A stretch of DNA of 64,000 nt, taken from positions 633,040 through 697,039 of the forward strand of contig NZ_DS989905.1 of the NCBI RefSeq assembly GCF_000155595.1. The letters run 5' to 3'. The notes below the pieces were generated by a model. The model was given only the letters and a program-made list of their open reading frames with translations, did not search any database and was not told the origin of the DNA. This document shows positions 1,868-16,607 of this stretch, one piece after another. A program made the position numbers and the translations under genes. The DNA comes from Synechococcus sp. PCC 7335. GTDB taxonomy: Bacteria; Cyanobacteriota; Cyanobacteriia; Phormidesmidales; Phormidesmidaceae. Position 1 is the stretch's first letter. The number at the start of each line of letters is the position of its first letter.

Positions 1868-1932
1868 CGATGGACTCTTCTGTTCACACTTAAACAATAA
1901 TTAGATTGTCTAATCCGAAATGGGGAAGTTCT

Positions 1933-4900
1933 ATGAAAGCTGTTATTTCTTCTGATAAGCACTCTTTAGATTTGGTCCTAAGCGAGGCCCAGAGATTATC
2001 TGAGCAATGGCTTATCTCATCTGCACTAGACGTTGACTTTATAGATAATATACAGACGGCTTTTGGAGATAGCTTCAATCTTGAAGAGCTGGAAGTGTTG
2101 AAACAAGACTGGGCAACAGGAACCTTTACGAATTTACCTGAAGTGCAGATTCGTTCAGCAGAGGAACTGAACGGTGCAAACGGTGCATTCTCAGCAACTT
2201 TAGGACAGATATATCTTTCGCGAGATTATATAGCACGTAACTTGTCAAATGTAACAGCTGTATCCGACGTTTTGACAGAAGAACTAGGTCATTTTATTGA
2301 TGCTCAAATCAATGAGATAGATTCACCTGGTGATGAGGGGGCCATATTTTCAGCTCTGGTGAGAGATGTAGAATTAAGCGAATCAGCCCTGGAAGATCTG
2401 CAAAAGGAAAACGATAAAACCTTTTTGCAAATTGATGGAGAAAGCACTTCAGTAGAGCTGAACATTCAAGATCAGGTGCTATGGTCAAATCGTATAGGAG
2501 AATCTTCTGCTCGTAAAATTGATTTTGGAGATATTCTTGGCATATCTGAACCAGACGGATTTCACAAGTTTTTCGGACCACCTGTAGTACCATTACGGGC
2601 TTTTTTGCCGATAAGCACAGGGAAGCAAGGCATACCGGGTGTGTTCTCGGGAGACGCTAGCGCTCAATTGGGTATAGCTAGCAGTCAAAATAAGACAAAC
2701 GCAGCCACAGTTAAAGCCGGTCTTCAGATTGATGCTGAATATGATGCTGGCGGCGTCGACTGGAATATTCCTCTATATGCTGATGCGGTACTTAAGATTG
2801 AAAATGGTGAGCTAGGATTTGACATTAATTTTGATAAAAATGGTGCTTTTTTTGATCTAATTGCGCCTCATTTATCCTTAAATGTTGATGCAGTGTTTAA
2901 TTCAGATGCAGCACTTTATCTAGATGGCAAAGCAAACTTTGAATATATTGATGTTTTTCGCTCAATATTTAGTGGATTCAAGAAGAAAGTTAATAGAAAA
3001 TCCGCAGGATTCAGTGAGAAAGTAGATCTTGCGTTTAATGGAACGCATCGCTTTGTAGATCTTGATACTAAAAATGACAAACAAGTCATTGACTATATTT
3101 TTGGTCGCAAAGAGTATGGGTTTGACAGTGGCGATTTAAATATTGATCTTCCCGTTGCCGATTTCTTGGATATCGAATTTGGATTGCCAAACTTAAACAA
3201 CGTTGAGTGGACTGAGCAGCCTTCGTCGCCAAATGAATACAGCTTCAAAATAGAAGATAGTTTTAAACTTTTCGATGTCAAATTTGATATTGATGAATTG
3301 ATTAGAAGTACCCTACCGTATCCTATTGGGTTTAAGAATAGCAGTGGATTCGACCTCTTTGGCAGAAGGTTCGGTTACGAAGTTGACGCAACGCTTCTAG
3401 ACGTCAACTTAAATGCCTCTTTGTTTGCAGATTACGACATAGACTTTTCAATCAAAGAATTAAAGCCATCGCTCACCATAGAAGGTAAAAAAAAGGACAA
3501 ATTTTCTTTCCTAGATTTGGAAGATGGCTCTAATGTTGAAATATACCGCGAAATTAGCAGCCTTGCTAAAGAGACTGGTGATTCTGAGGCACTTGATTTT
3601 TGGTTTGAGTTTGATCCTATATTATCCATAACTGCTAATGCCTATATCGAACCAGTTCTTACATTAACAGGCGGTATTGGCAAACTGGAAGGCAGCTTAG
3701 AAGTAGCGGGAGAAAAAAGTGAATTACCTAAAAAAACGCTCATTGAACTTGGAGCGTTGGGCCTTAATGACCTGGAGATAAAAACTGGAAAACACTCTTT
3801 ATTCGGTAGCTCTGAGCTCTTTAGTAAGCGTTTTTCGGAAATCGGCGGTTTTGGCTCCTCACTGCTACCCAACAAGAGGCGATGGGATTTCTCGGTACCG
3901 GTTAAAGATATCGGTGAGGCCCTAGGAATAGAAACTTATGATGGTACTGAGAAGCCAGACTACTTTGCAGGTACTGATAAAGATGACGGTGCTAGTTTAC
4001 GCGAAGGGGCAGATGTCGCTCAGCTCAGCTTCGGCAGAGACACTATCGATGGCGGTGCGCCAGACTTTCCTGGCAACGGAATCACAACAAACTACTATGG
4101 GCCATTCAATAACGGTGGGGCTTTTACACCTTCGGCAAGCGATCTATTTATTCTAGATTCCGATATTATTCTGGCTGATCCCAACGATTCAGATGCGGCG
4201 CTCGAGGTCAGAACTGATAGGTTCGGAAAGAATCACTTCAATCTTTCCATTGGCGACGTTATCATTGACAAGAACGGCAGCAATGTAGCCGAACTGCCTA
4301 ACAACACTCAGTTACGAGAGATTGAGAGAATTTTATTTGCTGATGATCTGCAATCTAGCGAAAGGAGTGTAGATTTCTTCTTTGGTGTTGCTGACAACCT
4401 CGAAGAGGATGACCGCCGCTTATACTTTGGAGGACAGCTGCCTAAGGAGCTATATGCTGCAAACTCTCCTCTCCCCACGGGAAACTTAACGGGTACTCAA
4501 GGAGACAACAGTTTTTCACTCCCTATCGGCTTTAATCGGGGTGCGCCGATAGTTCTTGGTCGGGGAGATGACATAGTTTCCCTGTTGACACTAAACGGAT
4601 CAACAAAGCCAAATTTCGAGAGTCCCTTTTATTGGCGAAATCCTTATGATAAGACAAATGACCTCCTTTTGTTTGATACCCCTGATGGCATCTACGTTGA
4701 TATCTTTGATTTGGGTGCAGGCCTTAATAGAGTCAATTTTCAAGATGCACTCTCGTCGATTCCGAAGCAACCAGGCTCTTCTCTCGCACCCACTCCTTTT
4801 CCCTATTCTCCGCTAATTACATCAGCAGCTCCTGGCAATATTATGTCTATCAGAGCCGATAAAGGTGTGACACCAAGGAAGCTTGTCGATAATGTTTCGC

Positions 4901-7900
4901 TAAGAGTGATTAATTTAGGTGGCGCAACAGTACTTTTCGCTAGAGATGCCTTGAATGGTCCCAACAACAATATATATGCCATTTTAAGTGCTGGTAATAA
5001 CAGCATTGCTCTAGATAATACTGTCAATGATCTTCAGCTTACGCTTTTACTGGAGAGCGAAGGACTTAAGCATAAGTTTTCTACGTATGGTTCCCTTTCT
5101 ACGTATGGTTCCGTTCAGGAAGCTAAGATTACTCTGAATAATAATGTAGCTTCCACAACAATTAACGAGTCAATAGGCGGAACTGACGTACTAACGGATT
5201 ATTTAGCACCGATTAATAACCTAATTCTGTCATCCGCTGATATTGTAGGCCCCTCAACGTTTCGAGAAATGGGCAGTCAAGATAGGTACTCACTCAATTC
5301 ACCTGCTAGTCAAACCTACGATATTGGCAGTGTTCAAGCCGAAAATATCCTAGTCCGAGGCCGGTTGCCTAGACAAGAAGGTGCTTTTCGGAAAGTGTAT
5401 CTGAGAGATAATGTTAATAGCAGTGTCAGTCTTGGTCTATCAGGAGATATCTTTGATGAGGTTGTTTTCGATTCACAGCGTGCAAATGAAAGCGATGTAT
5501 TTGAATTAACTAGGAACCGCTTCAATCAGGTAGATCTAACTCCTATGAGTGATGGCTACAACGGCAGATTCCGCGGGTTTCGTTTTGCCGCTATCCACGA
5601 ACTTGTTTTGCCCCAGACGGTTGACAATCGAATCATACTTTCTGGCAGCGACGATTTTGGCTTTAGCAAAGCAGAGCTAAATGCATTAGATGTAAAAACA
5701 TTTAAACCTCTTTCTGTAAGCCGTGAGCTGTCTGCAACACCTTACAGTATAAGTGCACCAGCCCAAACCTTATTGCTCGGCTCCGGAGATGATCTGGTTT
5801 TGAATAACGACTTTGCCTATGAGTTTATTTATCCTGGTGGTGGCAATAACGTTATTGCTCAAGCTGACTTTCCAAGTGTACCCATTAATATAGGCTATTT
5901 AGTTCCTGTGTCTGGTGAACGCTCATCTTATTTGAGTAGTCCGATCGGAGATGTTGTCGTCTACACAGAAGGCCATCGTTCAGACTACGTTATCCAAAAG
6001 TCGTCCGAGTTTGATAATGCTGTTGAAGTATTAAAAGCGGATGGTACTAAGGACTTGCTGTTTGGTATCAAGTTCATCAAGTTTGAGACGGAAGATGTTT
6101 CGACAATTCCTGTCGGCATTTCTACAGTGGTGGATCAAACCTACGCTAACAGTAAAGATGTCTTTGACAACGATATTAGTAACAGATTATTTGTCTCTCA
6201 AGCTGTTAGGCCCGATGGTGAGATTATTAAAGGTCAGCTTGAGAATGCATTTGCAATTGACAGAGTTGATTTGGCGTTAGACGTGATTCGTCAGCCAGGA
6301 ACAGTTACCAATGTTTGGAGCTACGATATTCCGCTTAATCTAAGAGACTTTACACTACCAAAGTCCTTCTTTCTCAATGATTTTGCAGATGCTGATATCG
6401 CTATAAAAGATCTCTATTCACGCGAAGACCTTGAAATTGAACTATCTAATATTGTTCAAAATGGCGAGACAATTAATACAGAGCAGAATGTTAATCCAGA
6501 CGGCAGTTGGACAATCCAACTACCGGATGATATTGATGTTGCCGATTCTAATTTTGATCCTACCAGTGCCTTTACCATCAATTACCTTATTAAGGAACCG
6601 GAGGGTTATTCTCACGCCGTTCAACTCACCCTTCAGCCTTCGTCCGACCTAGACCTTAAAGATTTAACCCTTCAAGGATTTAATAATTTATCTACAATAT
6701 CTAGTCTAGAAAACTACTTTTCTAGCTTCTCAGCAGATATTTCTGAGCTTTTGGATTCTCTAAAGATACCGCTTTCGGCAGGCAGCGAATTAGCCTTTTA
6801 TAGCGTGGATGATGTACTTAGTCGGCAAGCTGTCTCTGAGGATGAAATAGAGGACGGTGAGGTAGTCTTAGGGACCGATGGAGATGAAATTATTGAAGGA
6901 AGTCGCGGCTCAGACCAAGTTTATGGCGGCGCTGGCAACGATGTCTTGATTGGTCTGCAAGGTTCGGACTACATCGTAGGTCAGCAGGGTCGCGATATTA
7001 TTTTGGGTAAGGGTGGCGATGATATTTTAGTGGGCGAGGACCTTTTTAATCCGATTGAAGCGCCTGATGGTTCGCCCTCTTCAGACTTGCCTTTTGTCGG
7101 AGGTGATGTGATTGATGGCGGCAAAGGCGATGATCTTCTTTTGGGCAGTAGTGGTGATGATGTTTTGCTGCCTGGATTTGGTGACAATGCGGTGGATGGT
7201 GGCGAAGGCACTGATGTTGGGGTCTCAAACGGGGTGAGCAATGATTTTAGTATTAGGCGGCGTCTAGATGGATCTGTTGTTGTTGTGGATGTGCGCTCTC
7301 AAAAGTCATTGACGCTGTATCAAAACGTAGAACGCTTTAAGTTTGATGATCAGATGCTAACGCTTGATGATATTGCAGAACCACCGGGAGAGGTTTCTGT
7401 TACAGACGATGGGACGGCTGCGACTGTTACAACAAAAGAAGGCAACAAGGTACAGCTTGAAAGTGAAAACGGTTCTCAGTTCTTATCGATCGATATTCCA
7501 ACGATAGAAGACTTGCTGATTGAACAAGTGTTCATAGAGGATGCGCTAGCGTTTCTAGAGGAGTACCAAACCTCAGAAGGAGAGGCATTTGATGCCGATG
7601 CTGCTGTGTTTGAGTTTGTTACTGAAGTTTCAGAAGACGCTACTGAAGAGCTTATTTCACTCACCTTGGAAGAAGAATTGGATGTTAACACGTTTATCAA
7701 GTTCAATCCGAATACGGGCGAGACATTCGAATTTAATTATGATCCCCTTACCGGGTTAGGCGCAGAACTTAAGGATACTAATAACAATGGATTAGTAGAC
7801 ACTGTTCTAATTCACCTGAAAGATGGTGGTAAAGGAGATGCCGATGGAGAGCTTAACGGGATTGTCTACGATCCAGGCATACTAGCAAAATCTCTATCCG

Positions 7901-8886
7901 TATCCGGTACCAGAGGTCCTGATGTTATCAGTGGTACCAACAAAGATGACAAGATCGATGGACTCGGTGGTAACGATCAGTTGAGCGGCAACGACGGCAA
8001 CGATTCTCTAGACGGAGGAGCAAACAGCGACACGCTCTATGGCGGTAAGGGCAATGACATGCTCGATGGGGATCGAGGTGTGGATACGCTCTTTGGCGGT
8101 GATGGCAACGATATCCTAAACGGGGGAGCGGACAACGACACGCTTGATGGCGGCAAAGGGAACGACACGCTCGATGGGGGTCGCGGGAACGACACGCTCA
8201 CAGGCGGTAGCGGTAGAGACTCGCTGCTCGGCAACGATGGCAACGATATCCTAGACGGAGAAGCCAACAACGACGCGCTCTTCGGCGGTAAGGGCAACGA
8301 CACGCTCAGTGGGGGTCGAGGCGTGGATACGCTCAATGGCGGTGATGGCAACGATATCCTGAACGGGGGAGCGGACAACGACACGCTCGATGGGGGTCGA
8401 GGCGTGGATACGCTCTTCGGCGGCAAAGGCAACGATACGTTATACGGCGGTCGCGGGAACGACGCGCTTTTCGGCGACGATGGTAACGACACACTCTTTG
8501 GGAGAGCGGACAACGATACGCTCAACGGCGGTGATGGCAACGACACGCTCGATGGGGGTCGGGGGAACGACCTGCTTACGGGCGGTAGCGGTAGAGACAT
8601 CCTGCTTGGCAACGATGGCAACGATATTCTAGACGGAGGAGCAGACAACGATATGCTCTCGGGTGGTCAGGGTAGAGATACGTTTGTCTTATCGCTAGGT
8701 GACGGTGTTGATACCATCATTGACTTTGACACTAAGGACCTGATTGGTCTAGCAGGCGGGCTAACCATTGGTGACCTTTCCTTTGTTGGCAATAACATCA
8801 TTGCTACGGATACCAGCGAAGTGCTAGCCACTCTCACTAGCGTAGACACCACCAGCCTAAACAGCACTCAGTTCGTGCTGTTTTAA
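1933..8886 (+). CDS. Giant RTX (hemolysin-type calcium-binding) exoprotein
   Basis: The gene encodes about 2317 residues. I chose ATG 1933 because GGGGAAG lies just upstream; an in-frame TTG at 1906 would add nine residues. The N-terminal 190 residues carry an EELGHFIDA...DEGAIFSALV segment. I recognise this as a recurrent N-terminal module of cyanobacterial RTX proteins, resembling a degenerate HExxH site. A long beta-rich middle follows. There are two blocks of glycine/aspartate nonapeptides (about residues 1647-1762 and 1992-2252), and then a C-terminal segment (FVLSLGDGVDTIIDFD...) typical of RTX proteins exported by type I secretion without a cleaved signal. Calcium should fold the repeats outside the cell. 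No ABC exporter, membrane fusion protein or TolC gene lies in the window, so the exporter must be encoded elsewhere. An adhesin, S-layer-like or motility-related role is possible; the activity is unknown. Confidence 0.85.
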   Translation: MKAVISSDKHSLDLVLSEAQRLSEQWLISSALDVDFIDNIQTAFGDSFNLEELEVLKQDWATGTFTNLPEVQIRSAEELNGANGAFSATLGQIYLSRDYIARNLSNVTAVSDVLTEELGHFIDAQINEIDSPGDEGAIFSALVRDVELSESALEDLQKENDKTFLQIDGESTSVELNIQDQVLWSNRIGESSARKIDFGDILGISEPDGFHKFFGPPVVPLRAFLPISTGKQGIPGVFSGDASAQLGIASSQNKTNAATVKAGLQIDAEYDAGGVDWNIPLYADAVLKIENGELGFDINFDKNGAFFDLIAPHLSLNVDAVFNSDAALYLDGKANFEYIDVFRSIFSGFKKKVNRKSAGFSEKVDLAFNGTHRFVDLDTKNDKQVIDYIFGRKEYGFDSGDLNIDLPVADFLDIEFGLPNLNNVEWTEQPSSPNEYSFKIEDSFKLFDVKFDIDELIRSTLPYPIGFKNSSGFDLFGRRFGYEVDATLLDVNLNASLFADYDIDFSIKELKPSLTIEGKKKDKFSFLDLEDGSNVEIYREISSLAKETGDSEALDFWFEFDPILSITANAYIEPVLTLTGGIGKLEGSLEVAGEKSELPKKTLIELGALGLNDLEIKTGKHSLFGSSELFSKRFSEIGGFGSSLLPNKRRWDFSVPVKDIGEALGIETYDGTEKPDYFAGTDKDDGASLREGADVAQLSFGRDTIDGGAPDFPGNGITTNYYGPFNNGGAFTPSASDLFILDSDIILADPNDSDAALEVRTDRFGKNHFNLSIGDVIIDKNGSNVAELPNNTQLREIERILFADDLQSSERSVDFFFGVADNLEEDDRRLYFGGQLPKELYAANSPLPTGNLTGTQGDNSFSLPIGFNRGAPIVLGRGDDIVSLLTLNGSTKPNFESPFYWRNPYDKTNDLLLFDTPDGIYVDIFDLGAGLNRVNFQDALSSIPKQPGSSLAPTPFPYSPLITSAAPGNIMSIRADKGVTPRKLVDNVSLRVINLGGATVLFARDALNGPNNNIYAILSAGNNSIALDNTVNDLQLTLLLESEGLKHKFSTYGSLSTYGSVQEAKITLNNNVASTTINESIGGTDVLTDYLAPINNLILSSADIVGPSTFREMGSQDRYSLNSPASQTYDIGSVQAENILVRGRLPRQEGAFRKVYLRDNVNSSVSLGLSGDIFDEVVFDSQRANESDVFELTRNRFNQVDLTPMSDGYNGRFRGFRFAAIHELVLPQTVDNRIILSGSDDFGFSKAELNALDVKTFKPLSVSRELSATPYSISAPAQTLLLGSGDDLVLNNDFAYEFIYPGGGNNVIAQADFPSVPINIGYLVPVSGERSSYLSSPIGDVVVYTEGHRSDYVIQKSSEFDNAVEVLKADGTKDLLFGIKFIKFETEDVSTIPVGISTVVDQTYANSKDVFDNDISNRLFVSQAVRPDGEIIKGQLENAFAIDRVDLALDVIRQPGTVTNVWSYDIPLNLRDFTLPKSFFLNDFADADIAIKDLYSREDLEIELSNIVQNGETINTEQNVNPDGSWTIQLPDDIDVADSNFDPTSAFTINYLIKEPEGYSHAVQLTLQPSSDLDLKDLTLQGFNNLSTISSLENYFSSFSADISELLDSLKIPLSAGSELAFYSVDDVLSRQAVSEDEIEDGEVVLGTDGDEIIEGSRGSDQVYGGAGNDVLIGLQGSDYIVGQQGRDIILGKGGDDILVGEDLFNPIEAPDGSPSSDLPFVGGDVIDGGKGDDLLLGSSGDDVLLPGFGDNAVDGGEGTDVGVSNGVSNDFSIRRRLDGSVVVVDVRSQKSLTLYQNVERFKFDDQMLTLDDIAEPPGEVSVTDDGTAATVTTKEGNKVQLESENGSQFLSIDIPTIEDLLIEQVFIEDALAFLEEYQTSEGEAFDADAAVFEFVTEVSEDATEELISLTLEEELDVNTFIKFNPNTGETFEFNYDPLTGLGAELKDTNNNGLVDTVLIHLKDGGKGDADGELNGIVYDPGILAKSLSVSGTRGPDVISGTNKDDKIDGLGGNDQLSGNDGNDSLDGGANSDTLYGGKGNDMLDGDRGVDTLFGGDGNDILNGGADNDTLDGGKGNDTLDGGRGNDTLTGGSGRDSLLGNDGNDILDGEANNDALFGGKGNDTLSGGRGVDTLNGGDGNDILNGGADNDTLDGGRGVDTLFGGKGNDTLYGGRGNDALFGDDGNDTLFGRADNDTLNGGDGNDTLDGGRGNDLLTGGSGRDILLGNDGNDILDGGADNDMLSGGQGRDTFVLSLGDGVDTIIDFDTKDLIGLAGGLTIGDLSFVGNNIIATDTSEVLATLTSVDTTSLNSTQFVLF
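6871..7218 (+). repeat. First RTX nonapeptide block
   Basis: This stretch encodes degenerate GGxGxDxLx units (for example YGGAGNDVL and LGKGGDDIL). They are interrupted by a short proline/serine-rich insertion near 7050-7085, then resume. About 690 bases of non-repeat coding sequence separate it from the C-terminal array. Its units are more diverged than the C-terminal ones, suggesting an older block. Confidence 0.8.
7906..8688 (+). repeat. C-terminal RTX array, 29 uninterrupted nonapeptides
   Basis: Read in frame, this segment is 29 back-to-back nine-residue units of the form GGxGxDxLx, from GTRGPDVIS to GGQGRDTFV, with no insertion. Blocks of several units recur almost unchanged. The stretch around 8180-8260 is close to that around 8555-8640, and 8085-8160 is close to 8330-8410. 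This points to expansion by duplication of multi-unit blocks. The array binds calcium in known RTX proteins and immediately precedes the secretion-signal region. Confidence 0.9.
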
Positions 8887-9472: not shown

Positions 9473-9487
9473 GGCCCTAAAGTAGCG
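9473..9487 (+). repeat. Left Tn3 terminal inverted repeat, outer half
   Basis: GGCCCTAAAGTAGCG is the exact reverse complement of 16593-16607. The remaining 25 bases of the left repeat resume at 11896 after the intron. The last eight bases, AAGTAGCG (9480-9487), also serve as the intron-binding site IBS1 of the inserted intron. Confidence 0.85.
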
Positions 9488-10090
9488 ATGCGATGTAGAT
9501 AAGCCGAGTGTGCAAGGAGGCAACAGCCGAATTAAGAGTGGAGATAATCTCTCAGCAGCACCTGTCCTGCTGTCCCCACGTAACAGAGTTATCGACTCCG
9601 GTTACGCTGACGTTAGTAATGATGTCAGTGGAATGCAGACCACGCAAGTATCCTGACCTGGCAGCCTAAAGCTGGGAAAGGGCAAGGGGAAGTCCGAAAG
9701 GGTTAACACCCGTGAACCGTCGAAGAAGCTTCGTCATTGGCGGAATCAGTGAAATCAGGCTGACACACTGCGACCAAAAGGTGAGTGGGTGGCTTAGCGG
9801 CTCGCTACTTCGTTAAGCGATAGGTCACAATCCCACCGGAGCATAGACGGAACCCGACCCGGACGTATCTCACACACTCGGAACTGCATAAGCCCGATGG
9901 ATTCTCTGAACTATCAGAGTAGGCAAACCGTAAGGGATGCACAACCATCCAGCGGGTAAAGGATGCCAGAGAAAGCGAAGGCTCTTGTGTAATGCGAGAG
10001 ATAGGGGTTCGAGCTTTGCCCCACATCGAAAGATGGCAAACTTCTGGCGGGTCTTTAACGGTAAACCAAAGTAAAGGAACCGTATCCATT

Positions 10091-11857
10091 GTGAAAGATA
10101 GAGCCATCCCGGCATCGGAGCAAAGGAAGCTGCTAAAACACTGGACCAGTATCCACTGGGACCAAGTGAAGAAGCGTGTTAGGAACCTAAGACGACGGAT
10201 TTATCGTGCCACCCAAAACGGTCAGTGGAATCAGGTGCGCAGCCTGATGAAACTGATGCTAAGAAGCTACTCCAACCTGCTGCTATCAGTACGGCATGTG
10301 ACTCAAGAGAATCAGGGGCGACAGACAGCGGGCCTCGATGGCCAGACTGCCTTAACCGCTGAGAAACGAGTCCAACTAGTGAATCGATTGCAAGACCATT
10401 CCCTCTGGCAAGTGCTCCCGACTAAACGGGTCTACATTCCGAAAGCGAATGGAAAATTGAGGCCGTTAGGAATTCCTGCTCTCGAAAATCGAGTCGCCCA
10501 GACGATAATGAAGAATGCGCTCGAACCTCATTGGGAAGCCCGATTTGAGGGACATAGCTATGGTTTTCGCCCTGGTCGCAGTTGTCATGATGCTATTGAG
10601 CAGTGCTTCCTACGACTCAGACATGGCTGTGATACCTGGGTACTCGATGCAGATCTAAAGGGTGCATTCGACAATTTGAGTCACTCCTTTATCCTCGACA
10701 CCATCGGCCTCGTGCCGGGTCGAGAACTCATCAAGCAGTGGCTCAAGGCAGGCTACGTAGAAGCTGAGATGTTCCATGCCACCCCCAAGGGAGCCCCCCA
10801 AGGCGGGTCCATTTCACCGTTACTCTTGAACATTGCCTTGAATGGAATGGAGAAGTTGTTGTTGTCATTTACGACAACGAGAACTTACCAGCCTTCCTCA
10901 AAGGCAAAGTCTCAATCATCGTATAAACGCACGTCGCCAACTTATGGCTACTGTCGTTACGCTGATGATTTCGTGGTAACGGCGAAGACAAAAGCAGACA
11001 TCGAAGCGGTTGTCCCTATCTTGCAGGCGTGGCTTAAACCACGCGGGCTAACGCTGAATATGGAGAAGACTCAGATAGTGAATGTCCAACAGGGTTTTCC
11101 CTTTCTGGGGTTCTCAATTCGGCACCACAAAGGTAAGTGTCTCTGTAAACCGCAAAAGGAAAAGATTCTGGCCTTTCTGAAGCGGATTCGGAGCTGGTTG
11201 AAGCACAATGTTTCTATCAGTCCGGCGGCAGTAATACACCACCTAAACCCGATACTGCGAGGATGGGGTAACTACTACAAACATGGCGTCAGTAAAGACG
11301 TGTTTAGCTACGTGGATTCCCAACTCTGGCAGGCGATCTGGAGATGGTGCTGTCGGCGTCATCCGAACAAACGGAGTTCATGGGTTGCCAGGAAATACTA
11401 CCGAACCTTCCAAGGACGGCTGTGGACATTCACCACGTCTGTCACTGACCGGACAGGGAAGCGGAAGCCACTAACGTTAGTGCGTCTAGCGGATATTCCG
11501 ATTCAACGCCATGTCAAGGTCAAAGGAACGGCTTCTCCTGATAATCCAACTCTCGAAGACTACTGGCAATACCGCCAAACCCGATACGGTAAAGCCTATT
11601 GGGAGAAAGGCTCGAAATACTACAGAGTTGCTCAGAGCCAGAATTGGCGGTGCCCAGTCTGTCATGACGCCTTGTTCAATGGAGAAGCTCTACACACGCA
11701 TCATCGGCAGCAAGTTAAGAATGACGGCACTGAGATAGAAGAGAATCTAATTCATCTTCACCAAGCCTGTCATCAGTACCTGCATAAGAATGATGTGGTT
11801 TTGAATGGCCAAAGGCTTGAGCGGCTTGATGGGATAACTGTCACGAGCCGTTCTTAG
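10091..11857 (+). CDS. ltrA: Group II intron reverse transcriptase/maturase with HNH endonuclease
   Basis: This is the intron-encoded protein that helps splicing and reverse-transcribes the intron into target DNA. An RT core begins near TQENQGRQTAGLDG. It contains PQGGSISPLLLN, a CRYADDFVV active site and FLGFSI, followed by a maturase X domain. A C-terminal HNH zinc motif (CPVCHDAL...HTHHRQ...HLHQACHQYLH) cuts the second DNA strand in related proteins. The frame is open from 9992, but GTG 10091, preceded by AAAGGAA, gives the usual N-terminus. All RT motifs are intact, so the protein may be active. The last residues overlap domain V, which is unusual. Confidence 0.85.
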   Translation: MKDRAIPASEQRKLLKHWTSIHWDQVKKRVRNLRRRIYRATQNGQWNQVRSLMKLMLRSYSNLLLSVRHVTQENQGRQTAGLDGQTALTAEKRVQLVNRLQDHSLWQVLPTKRVYIPKANGKLRPLGIPALENRVAQTIMKNALEPHWEARFEGHSYGFRPGRSCHDAIEQCFLRLRHGCDTWVLDADLKGAFDNLSHSFILDTIGLVPGRELIKQWLKAGYVEAEMFHATPKGAPQGGSISPLLLNIALNGMEKLLLSFTTTRTYQPSSKAKSQSSYKRTSPTYGYCRYADDFVVTAKTKADIEAVVPILQAWLKPRGLTLNMEKTQIVNVQQGFPFLGFSIRHHKGKCLCKPQKEKILAFLKRIRSWLKHNVSISPAAVIHHLNPILRGWGNYYKHGVSKDVFSYVDSQLWQAIWRWCCRRHPNKRSSWVARKYYRTFQGRLWTFTTSVTDRTGKRKPLTLVRLADIPIQRHVKVKGTASPDNPTLEDYWQYRQTRYGKAYWEKGSKYYRVAQSQNWRCPVCHDALFNGEALHTHHRQQVKNDGTEIEENLIHLHQACHQYLHKNDVVLNGQRLERLDGITVTSRS

Positions 11858-11895
11858 GGGAGAGGGACGCGGCGACGTGTTCCCTCTTACCCGAC
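11819..11895 (+). ncRNA. Group II intron domains V and VI
   Basis: Domain V runs from GAGCGGC to GAGCCGTTC (11819-11853) and folds as a long stem with the catalytic AGC at 11820-11822. Domain VI is the AGAGGGA/TCCCTCT hairpin that follows, with a candidate bulged A at 11889. The coding frame of the maturase continues through domain V and stops at 11857. Confidence 0.75.
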
Positions 11896-11920
11896 AAGCT
11901 GCGAAATGGGGCCATTTAGT
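11896..11920 (+). repeat. Left Tn3 terminal inverted repeat, inner half
   Basis: It starts AAGCTGCGAAATGGGGC and ends ATTTAGT. It matches the reverse complement of 16568-16592 with a single C/A mismatch. It continues the outer half at 9473-9487 once the intron is removed. Confidence 0.85.
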
Positions 11921-14379
11921 TCATTTGTACTCTTTTAGAACTATTCTTTAGCCCTGATATGTTTAGCGACAGTTAAACATAGAGGAAGCTGAAATGAAGC
12001 GACAGTGGGAACCAGAGGAGCTAATCGAGCAGTTTACGCTGATGCCATCAGAGCTAGCGCTGCTACCTGATGAGATCACTAACGCCGCCGCGCAAAATAG
12101 ACTGGGCTTTGCCATCCTGCTCAAGTTCTTCCAAGTAGAAGGGCGATTCCCTCAGCACGCTGGCGAGGTCCCAAAAGCGATCACCGATTTCATTGCTCAG
12201 CAGCTAGCCCTGTCTGAAGCGGACTACCGTCAGTACAAATGGTCAGGTCGAACGGTTAAGACGCATCGCAGCCAGATCAGAACCTTCCTCGGCATCAGGC
12301 CGATGAGGCAGAGCGATCAGCAAGAGCTGAAGCGCTGGCTGATAGAAGAGATTCTACCATTGGGCCTGTCTTTTGAAGCGCTCAAAGCACAAGCCTACGG
12401 GCAGTTGCGACAACTCAAGATTGAACCGCCCACTGCGAAGGGGTTAGAACGCCTGATCCGCTCTGCGGCCCGTCTGCACGAGCGTAGCTTTTGTAAACAG
12501 ATCGCGGCTCAGCTATCAGCCAAGACTCGCGCCAGCATCAATGCCCTGCTGAATACTGAAAGCCCACTAGAGGATGAAAACAGCCAGTTTAGGCAATCGC
12601 AGTTGAGCTATCTCAAAACAGATCCAGGACGGCTGGGTCTCAACAGTCTGTTGAAAGAGATAGAGAAACTACAGCGCATCCGTGAGCTAGAGCTGCCTTC
12701 GGCGTTTTTTAATCATGTTGTTCCCAAGCTAGTGCAACAGTATCGCCGCAGAGCGTCCACTGAGCCGCCGCGAGAGCTAAGACGCCATCCGCCAGCGATT
12801 CGCTACACCCTAGTCGCTGCATTCTGCTGGCAGCGAGAACGAGAGATCATCGATGACCTAGTCACTTTGCTAATTCAAATCATCCACCGCTTGAGCATCA
12901 GCGCCGAGCGCCGAGTCGAGCGCGAATTGATTGCTAGCTTCAAACGAGTCAATCGCAAAGAGGCGCTTTTGTTGAAGATTGCAACGGCTTCCCTTAAGCA
13001 ACCGGAAGGTACAGTGAGAGATGTCGTCTATCCTGTGGCCAACCCTGAGACATTGCAGTCACTGATTGATGAGCAGAGCGCAGGCGAGACCTATCACGAG
13101 AAGGTGCATACTCGCATTCGAGCGTCATACCTGCATCACTATCGGCGGATGGTGCCTGCCATTCTGGATGCTTTGAGCTTTTACTCTAATAATGAACAAC
13201 ATCAGCCGGTTGTCTACGCCTTAGCGATTCTCAAACGCTATCAGGATAGCAATCGCCGTTTCTACGACGAAGACGAAACTTTGGTTATTGAAGGCGTATT
13301 GCCCACCCACTGGCCAGAGCTGATCGGCGAAACTGATAGCAACGGAGAAGTCCGTATCAACCGGGTCAACTACGAGATCTGTGTGCTGCAAGCGCTATGA
13401 GAAAAGCTACGTGCTCGGGTGGTTTGGGTCGTAGGAGCCGGACGATACGGCAATCCAGAACAGGATCTACCCCAAGACTTTGAAGCTCATCGAGAAGTCT
13501 ACTACCAGGAACTTAGCCAGCCGCTAGAAGCAGAGGCGTTTATTCAGCAGCTCAAGCAGACGATGCAAGCAGAGTTGAGCAGCTGAACCAGGGAATGCCA
13601 AAGAACAAAGGGGTTCGCATTCAGACGCGCAAGCACGGTTGGATCTCAGTCTCTCCGGTAGAAGCGCAGCCAGAGCCACCCAACTTGCTAAAGCTCAAGG
13701 CAGAGATTACTCGCCGCTGGCCGCTGACTGGATTGTTGGAGATGCTCAAAGAAACAGATTTGCGGGTCAACTTTACTGAACAGTTTGAGAGCGCTGCTAC
13801 CCGTGAGAACCTGGACCGCAACACTTTACAGCGGCGGCTGTTGCTCTGCCTCTATGGTCTAGGCACCAATACTGGCCTCAAGCGGGTCTGTGCGGGCATC
13901 GATAACGAAAACTACAACAATCTGCTCTACGTCAAGCGTCACTACATCCACAAAGAACATCTGCGTAATGCGATTGCTAAGGTCGTCAATGCGGTGCTGC
14001 GCTCACGCCTAGAGACCGTTTGGGGTGAGGGTACGTCAGCTTGCGCATCGGACTCGAAGAAGTTCGGCGCATGGGACCAGAATCTAATGACTGAATGGCA
14101 CCAGCGCTACGGTGGCCGGGGGGTGATGATCTACTGGCATGTGGAGAAGAAGTCAGTGTGTATCTACTCTCAGCTCAAGACCTGTTCTTCTTCTGAAGTC
14201 GCTTCTATGCTCGAAGGGTTGTTGCGCCACAACACTGAGATGAAGGTAGAGCGCAACTATGTCGATACTCACGGTCAAAGCGAGATTGCCTTTGCCTTCT
14301 GTCATCTACTGGGCTTTAACTTGATGCCCCGGCTGAAGCGGATCGGGGCGCAGCGACTCTACTTCCCAGAGGTAGGCAC

Positions 14380-15705
14380 CTGATTGGCTGACAAAAGATG
14401 CAATAGCCAGGTTGAATCGCTGTCATACAGGGACTTGAGAGCCGCAAAGGTTGCGAGGGGGAGCCAGCGTTCTAAGATTTAGATGCAACTCAAAACCAAA
14501 GGAACGCTGTGAAAAAAACTCCCGCCTCTACGATGCCTTGAAAGCCTGGCTGGGTCAAGATTGCCCCTGGGCACATCTATCGCATCTAACGACCTGCTGT
14601 TGGATGGTGTTTGCGCTGATTCAAACCGGCAGCGTCAGCCTGACAAAGTGGACAACCTACTTGCCCTGTCGCGGTCTCTACGCCCAGAGTAAACAAAGAC
14701 GGGTGCGTCGCTGGTTAGGCAATAGCCGCATCAACATCCACCGATTGTACAAACCGCTGATTCAAGCGGCCTTGGCGACCTGGGAAGCCGAGTGCCTTTA
14801 TCTTTGTTTAGACACCTCGCTGTTTTGGGAGCAGTACTGCTTAATTCGGCTAGCCGTGGTGTATCGAGGCCGCTCCATTCCTCTGGCTTGGCGAGTTCTA
14901 GAACACAACAGTGCCTCTGTTGCGTTTGAAGCCTATGAAGAACTGCTCAGGCAGTCTACGCAATACTTGCCTTCAAACGCAAACATGATTCTGTTGGCCG
15001 ACCGAGGCTTTGTGCATACCCGTGCGATGACGCTGATAAAACAACTCGGCTGGCACTACCGCATCCGTATCAAAAGTGACACCTGGATTTGGCGACCCGG
15101 TTCCGGCTGGTGTCAACCTAAATCGTTTCACCTAGAACGAGGTCGGGCACTATGTTTCCACCACATCAGACTCCATCGTCACGAACAGTACGGCCCAGTG
15201 CATGTCATCATCGGGCGCAACAACATCAATGGTGAACTTTGGGCCGTCGTCAGCGACCAGCCCACTAGCCCGCAAACCTTTATGGAATATGCCTTGCGCT
15301 TCGATATCGAGGAAGGATTTTTAGACGACCAGTCCGCCGGTTGGAATCTACAACGCTCTGAGATTCGAGGCCTCACTGACCTCTCTCGCTTATGGTTTAT
15401 TCTGGCAGTAGCCACGCTTTACGTCACGGCTCAAGGCGTAGCGGTTGTGCAATCAGGCCGTAGGCGATGGATTGACACACACTGGGATAGAGGCAACAGC
15501 TACTTTCGCATCGGATTGGAGTGGACTAAGGCGGCTCTGCTCAACGGTTGGCAGGTGATTAAACAGGCTTGTTTTACCTCTCACATTGATCCGCAACCGG
15601 CGATGGCTTCTAGGCCACAACACAACAAGAAGTCCGGGCGCTTGCTCGATTTCAGCGTGATTACCGTTAAGTTTGTTCCTGATTAAACTTTTGTCAGCCA
15701 ATCAG
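14380..15705 (+). mobile_element. 1326-bp IS4-family-like (IS10/IS50-type ends) element, copy 1
   Basis: It has perfect 18-bp inverted ends CTGATTGGCTGACAAAAG and a 9-bp target duplication GGTAGGCAC at 14371-14379 and 15706-15714. Ends starting CTGA plus a 9-bp duplication are known for the IS10/IS50 group of IS4, and the transposase fits that fold. The sequence appears identical to copy 2 at 47927-49252. It inserts into the Tn3 transposase reading frame. Confidence 0.92.
14451..15686 (+). CDS. IS4-family-like transposase, copy 1 (start uncertain, possible -1 frameshift)
   Basis: This is a DDE transposase of about 390-410 residues. It shows LCLDTSLFWEQY (first Asp), LLADRGF (second Asp) and FDIEEGFLDDQSAGW...R (Glu). 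The open frame begins with a TTG at 14451 that has no good ribosome-binding site. A better start is GTG 14509, preceded by AAAGGA. That frame is -1 relative to the transposase and meets a run of seven A (14512-14518) before closing after ten codons. Ribosomal or transcriptional slippage there would give the full enzyme. The protein is the same in both copies, so the arrangement is not a random lesion of one copy. Confidence 0.85.
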   Translation: MRGGASVLRFRCNSKPKERCEKNSRLYDALKAWLGQDCPWAHLSHLTTCCWMVFALIQTGSVSLTKWTTYLPCRGLYAQSKQRRVRRWLGNSRINIHRLYKPLIQAALATWEAECLYLCLDTSLFWEQYCLIRLAVVYRGRSIPLAWRVLEHNSASVAFEAYEELLRQSTQYLPSNANMILLADRGFVHTRAMTLIKQLGWHYRIRIKSDTWIWRPGSGWCQPKSFHLERGRALCFHHIRLHRHEQYGPVHVIIGRNNINGELWAVVSDQPTSPQTFMEYALRFDIEEGFLDDQSAGWNLQRSEIRGLTDLSRLWFILAVATLYVTAQGVAVVQSGRRRWIDTHWDRGNSYFRIGLEWTKAALLNGWQVIKQACFTSHIDPQPAMASRPQHNKKSGRLLDFSVITVKFVPD

Positions 15706-16306
15706 GGTAGGCACTAAAGCCACCTACCAGAACTTACAGCCAGTGTTGAGTCGGGCGATTGACTGGGATTTGATTCGCAGGCAGTACGACCAGCTGATCA
15801 AGTATGCGACGGCGCTGCGGTTGGGCACGGCTGAAACCGAAGTCATTCTCAGGCATTTCAATCGTAGTGAAACCAAGCACCCGACCTATCAAGGTTTGGC
15901 AGAGCTAGGCAGAGCGGTCAAGACGATCTTCCTCTGTCGTTACCTACATTCTGTTGAACTGCGACAGGAGATCCAGGATGGTTTGAATGTAGTAGAGCGC
16001 TGGAATGGCGCTAATGACTTTATCTTCTATGGGCGCAGCGGCGAGTTTGCCAGCAATCGGCGTGCTCATCAGGAGCTAGCGGCGCTAGCATTACATCTGT
16101 TGCAGATCAGCCTGGTCTATATCAACACGCTGATGATTCAGAGAGTGCTGAGTGAACCCAGGTGGTGGGCGCAGATGCAGCCGGAGGACTTGCGGGCACT
16201 GACGCCGCTGTTGTGGAACCATGTCACACCCTATGGTGTGTTTAGGTTGGATTTTAGCGATCGCATTGACTTAGAGCCTGTCGGCAGCGCCTTATCATCG
16301 GCCTGA

Positions 16307-16567: not shown

Positions 16568-16607
16568 ACTAAATTGCCCCATTTCGCAGCTTCGCTACTT
16601 TAGGGCC
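16568..16607 (-). repeat. Right Tn3 terminal inverted repeat (intact)
   Basis: Read on the minus strand it begins GGCCCTAAAGTAGCG and continues AAGCTGCGAAATGGGGC. It is the uninterrupted reference that defines where the group II intron entered the left copy. Confidence 0.85.

Follow-up and report, generated by a model that had tools for sequence, protein, structure and literature searches.

PMC5894124 describes group II introns that home to mobile elements. RmInt2 of Sinorhizobium meliloti is reported to target both inverted repeats of ISRm17 (PMC5894124, citing Martinez-Rodriguez 2014); the use of both ends of one transposable element as targets therefore has a precedent. RmInt1 homes to ISRm2011-2, a multicopy mobile element, and blocks its spread (PMC5894124). 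A review on group II introns gives three target specificities, namely homing sites, terminators, and attC sites (PMC4424553). In the open-licence papers searched, we find no report of introns in Tn3 ends and none of intron guides that follow several variants of a terminal inverted repeat (TIR). Tn3 elements carry much bacterial gene traffic. Here, we analyse a group II intron of Synechococcus sp. PCC 7335 that lies in a 64,000-nt stretch of contig C2, hereafter the window.

Results

A group II intron splits the left end of a Tn3 element

The intron splits the left TIR after TIR base 15. The tip of the repeat reads GGCCCTAAAGTAGCG, and beyond the intron the repeat resumes as AAGCTGCGAAATGGGGCCATTTAGT. 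The right TIR is uninterrupted and reads GGCCCTAAAGTAGCGAAGCTGCGAAATGGGGCAATTTAGT over 40 bp. In accordance with the original prediction, the left TIR is split and the right one is whole (Table 1).

Table 1 Features of the split Tn3 end and of the intron, in window coordinates
Feature	Position	Strand	Remarks
Outer 15 bp of left Tn3 TIR (5' exon)	9473-9487	+	Identical to right TIR tip
IBS2 CCCTA	9475-9479	+	Register from pairing comparison
IBS1 AAGTAGCG	9480-9487	+	Register from pairing comparison
Group II intron, 2408 nt	9488-11895	+	Bases 2-2408 identical to two genomic copies; RF00029 at 3' end
Intron base 1	9488	+	A in window; G in both C3 copies and all relatives inspected
EBS2 TGGCG	9738-9742	+	Pairs 4/5 with CCCTA at -13..-9
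EBS1 CGCTACTT	9803-9810	+	Loop of covarying 8-bp stem
Intron-encoded protein, 621 aa: RVT_N, RVT_1 (YADD), GIIM maturase, HNH	9992-11857	+
Domains V and VI, branch-point A 11889	11817-11895	+	Rfam RF00029
Inner 25 bp of left Tn3 TIR (3' exon)	11896-11920	+	25 nt, 96% complementary to 16568-16592
tnpA (Tn3 transposase), IS-interrupted and frameshifted	11994-16306	+	Pieces 11994-13400, 13595-14383, 15743-16306
IS4-type insertion sequence within tnpA	14379-15706	+	19-bp perfect ends; 7-bp GTAGGCA duplication
Intact right Tn3 TIR, empty target site	16568-16607	-

The encoded protein combines RVT_1, GIIM, and HNH domains, and thus has the reverse transcriptase and maturase parts of a group II intron protein; it scores 347 bits against TIGR04416 (cut-off 300). 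The 5' end has the GUGYG form, GTGCG, in both copies on contig C3 and in all inspected relatives, and reads ATGCG in the window. At the 3' end, RF00029 matches domains V and VI with 40.4 bits (E 7e-6) and ends exactly at the last intron base; the match was missed in a first whole-window scan with faster filters. Counted from the 3' end, the bulged branch-point A comes seventh, as originally noted. In addition, both EBS1/IBS1 and EBS2/IBS2 pairings are present.

The nearest solved relative of the protein is PDB 6me0 (phmmer E 1e-122 across residues 49-601), which we take to be the Thermosynechococcus elongatus group II intron maturase. Judged by this nearest structure, the window intron is probably of class IIB. 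We know of no transposon-end targeting by the 6me0 intron. The open reading frame of the window protein crosses the catalytic domain V (11817-11857), and relatives match it up to residue 617, so this overlap seems conserved.

The transposon belongs to the Tn3 family. The window transposase contains PF01526 (DDE_Tnp_Tn3), the intact C3 copy scores 934 bits against NF033527, and the ends, at 40 bp, agree with Tn3 TIRs of ~38-40 bp. The window copy of Tn3 is dead independently of the TIR split, its tnpA being cut by an insertion sequence. Elsewhere in the window, positions 1906-8886 encode a 2326-aa protein with a long C-terminal run of GGxGxDxL-type calcium-binding repeats.

Filled and empty ends in one genome

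A genome search finds two further intron copies on contig C3, identical to the window intron across bases 2-2408 (2407/2407 sites). They occupy both TIRs of one Tn3, in opposite orientation, and this Tn3 has an intact tnpA of 992 aa. All three copies share their TIR base but differ in their outer flanks; the insertion site is fixed. Empty TIRs of the same family are present at the right end in the window and on C6, and C4 has an empty variant. The proposal that the intron homed into a transposon end, and that the whole Tn3 family could serve as target, is supported by these filled and empty ends. The intact Tn3 ends read AAGTAGCGAAGCTGCG, and the objection that they might lack the target sequence falls away, as does the one that folding might put EBS1 elsewhere.

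The junction had been described as exact to the base. In the window alone it is ambiguous by one base, because A9488 fits either exon or intron. The two C3 copies settle the point: they begin GTGCGATG directly after AAGTAGCG, while the window copy begins ATGCGATG, indicating that A9488 is intron base 1 with a G-to-A change. Intron base 1 is the sole difference among the three genomic copies, and the chance of hitting that position is ~1 in 2408. In group II introns, G1 is more strongly conserved than any other 5' base; it matters most for splicing and, in the second step of that reaction, acts together with the penultimate A. Therefore, the window copy with A1 may splice poorly. Either a point mutation or a faulty 5' junction at integration is possible as the origin of A1.

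The ends of contig C2 are inverted repeats: the first and last 3 kb are 100% identical in reverse, identity is 99.9% at ~40 kb, and the repeat is gone at 60 kb. The ends of C4 are likewise inverted repeats of at least 5.5 kb. These contigs are either linear replicons with long terminal repeats or products of assembly fold-back.

Guide sequences covary with their targets

The minimum-energy fold of domain I alone does not place EBS1 and EBS2 convincingly; therefore, we use comparative pairing. In an unguided scan of eight introns with a readable guide and exon, each aligned 5-7-nt intron window is compared with each upstream exon offset (12,604 combinations). The best group pairs 9803-9810 with exon positions -1..-8, which is the EBS1 of the original prediction, found in the loop of a covarying hairpin; within this group, 9803-9809 pairs with -1..-7. 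In this hairpin, 99% of cells are paired and five pairs are changed on both sides (compensatory). The next independent group pairs 9736-9743 with -14..-7, giving the EBS2 for the CCCTA-type IBS2 that had been left unplaced. An early EBS2 candidate, AGGGC at 9679-9683, shows no covariation and was dropped.

Guides and targets covary. EBS2 is TAGGG against CCCTA in Leptolyngbyaceae SM2_5_2, TTACC against GGTAA in Heron Island J, and CTACG against CGTAG in Halomicronema. The G441 intron has EBS2 GTGTC against GACAC and EBS1 CGCCAAT against GTTGGCG. Pairing is imperfect in the window EBS2 (4/5) and in EBS1 of the Heron Island J and Halomicronema introns (5/7 each). Pairing of each intron with its own exon, 86/96, is the maximum across all 40,320 permutations (p 5e-5); the registers of this test were first picked by eye, a choice that the unguided scan addresses.

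Relatives at Tn3 ends of other cyanobacteria

In Leptolyngbya Heron Island J, Leptolyngbyaceae SM2_5_2, Kovacikia, and Acaryochloris, introns 75-90% identical to that of the window follow base 15 of Tn3 TIRs, either verified ones or near-identical ones. In SM2_5_2, an 81%-identical intron occupies the exact same base of the same TIR type and precedes a tnpA with a 65%-identical protein. In Heron Island J, a 90%-identical 5' part follows GGGGTAATTGAAGCG on three contigs. In that genome, the empty form, GGGGTAATTGAAGCG followed by AAGCTGCAACGAAGTGC, bounds a 3.3-kb stretch of its contig C26 on either side (a verified TIR pair) and also precedes a tnpA on its contig C83, where the opposite end has the 3' part of an intron. 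On plasmid pA of Kovacikia minuta, the intron is preceded by GGGGCAAAAGTAGCG, one base off TIRs verified by inverted-repeat search in plasmids of Chroococcidiopsis, Nostoc, and Scytonema. The junction on pREC4 of Acaryochloris marina reads GGCCTAAAACGACCG, identical to the 42/42 TIR pair of a Tn3 in Acaryochloris 'Moss Beach'.

A family-wide pattern search recovers further junctions of the same shape. Among 15 distinct junction 15-mers, 12 start with GG (binomial p ~1e-12, with sites not fully independent), and 8 have at most three mismatches from a verified TIR tip in the same register, a closeness reached by no more than 0.01% of random 15-mers. Exceptions are a resolvase gene of P. priestleyi ULC027 that holds a relative, one CGACCG site, and two sites of ATTGGCG/GTTGGCG type. 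Relatives away from Tn3 TIRs include those at GGACACTGTTGGCG-type sites.

Members of the lineage are also found right next to IS1182-type transposase genes, which may be a second target at transposon ends. At several junctions, the intron stops after its first 33-67 nt and unrelated sequence follows; this loss of the 3' part is the opposite of the usual 5' truncation of retroelements.

An exact search for the TIR in 386 cyanobacterial genomes gives matches in Synechococcus sp. PCC 7335 only, and a degenerate TIR pattern with three mismatches returns mostly chance matches. At C1:807233, a TIR-like 15-mer at first suggested an intron of another kind; an IS5-like element starts ~12 bases on, and the candidate was set aside.

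Spread of the intron among Tn3 ends

Outside the intron, the Tn3 copies of the window and C3 differ at 79 of 3371 nt (~2.6%), and by ~0.75% even in the conserved middle; inside the intron, bases 2-2408 show no difference. Intron copies that are identical within Tn3s that differ by ~2.6% indicate that the intron moved between Tn3 copies after their divergence, independently of them. The insertions are repeated and independent.

A 5-bp target duplication is a trace of Tn3 transposition that is lost on rearrangement, and it is not required for membership of the Tn3 family. None is seen at the two Tn3 copies, whose flanks are AAGTA/AATAA (window) and TGTAA/TAGTC (C3). The copies look rearranged and their history partly reshuffled.

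Homologous recombination or gene conversion, using the TIR and Tn3 sequence that the copies share, could instead have spread the intron. The Tn3s of the window and of C3 are indeed mosaic, with differences clustered near the ends and no target duplications. However, the shared outer homology is just 15 bp, and recombination explains neither insertion at the same base of unrelated TIR variants nor the tracking of different TIRs by EBS1 and EBS2; we regard this route as unlikely. A single insertion that was then copied with Tn3 by transposition would account for the confinement of all three genomic copies to one Tn3 family. Empty and filled ends with unequal divergence refute it as the sole cause: the introns are identical in diverged carriers, the second Tn3 end is empty in the window and filled on C3, and diverged introns occupy other TIR variants. 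It is thus very improbable. That a generalist intron landed by chance on transposon ends that are merely abundant is hardly credible, despite the lineage members outside Tn3 TIRs, given the GG exactly 15 bp upstream in most distinct sites and the in-register resemblance of many to verified TIR tips.

Discussion

From these comparisons, the observations very probably reflect ordinary EBS/IBS-guided retrohoming, carried out by introns of a lineage that has specialised on Tn3 ends and co-evolves with them. The intron would retrohome through EBS1/IBS1 and EBS2/IBS2 to a fixed site between bases 15 and 16 of the TIR, presumably with its encoded protein carrying out reverse splicing and target-primed reverse transcription, as expected from known group II intron biology. 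Because the repeat is inverted, the site is available twice per Tn3, in opposite orientations, and on C3 both sites are filled. Through changes in EBS1 and EBS2, the lineage would have followed Tn3 ends across several TIR variants.

The intron parts the tip of the Tn3 end from its inner, transposase-binding portion, which should make transposition from there fail; splicing mends the RNA but leaves the DNA split. Judging from known group II intron biology, the split TIR likely blocks transposition. More tentatively, and with greater doubt than confidence, a cyanobacterium-wide lineage might track Tn3 ends by coupled EBS1/EBS2 changes and act as a heritable brake on Tn3, with both ends disabled and tnpA intact as on C3. 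If so, invaded Tn3s would become transposase donors unable to move. The picture resembles one parasite following another and probably crippling it.

EBS/IBS-guided retrohoming to Tn3 ends would make the lineage a natural record of a retroelement altering its guides to keep pace with a shifting target; filled, doubly filled, and empty sites occur together in one genome. How introns select safe sites of high copy number, and whether Tn3 elements are restrained by them, are questions for which it provides a tractable system.

Besides the 6me0 maturase, three known systems come close. Like RmInt2, the window intron is a group II intron that targets the left and right inverted repeats of a transposable element; RmInt2 is of class D and targets an insertion sequence, whereas the window intron has a Tn3-family host and an HNH protein. 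Like RmInt1, it homes to a multicopy mobile element in a way that would block its spread; RmInt1 has no endonuclease domain (PMC8914252), and its target lies inside an IS630-type element. Group IIC introns share a specialised, class-wide choice of targets involving inverted repeats (terminators and attC sites; PMC4424553), but they recognise a stem-loop without an established IBS2-EBS2 pairing (PMC7923331), whereas the window lineage has EBS2 pairing. In a further difference from RmInt2, the guides of the window lineage track several TIR variants across genera.
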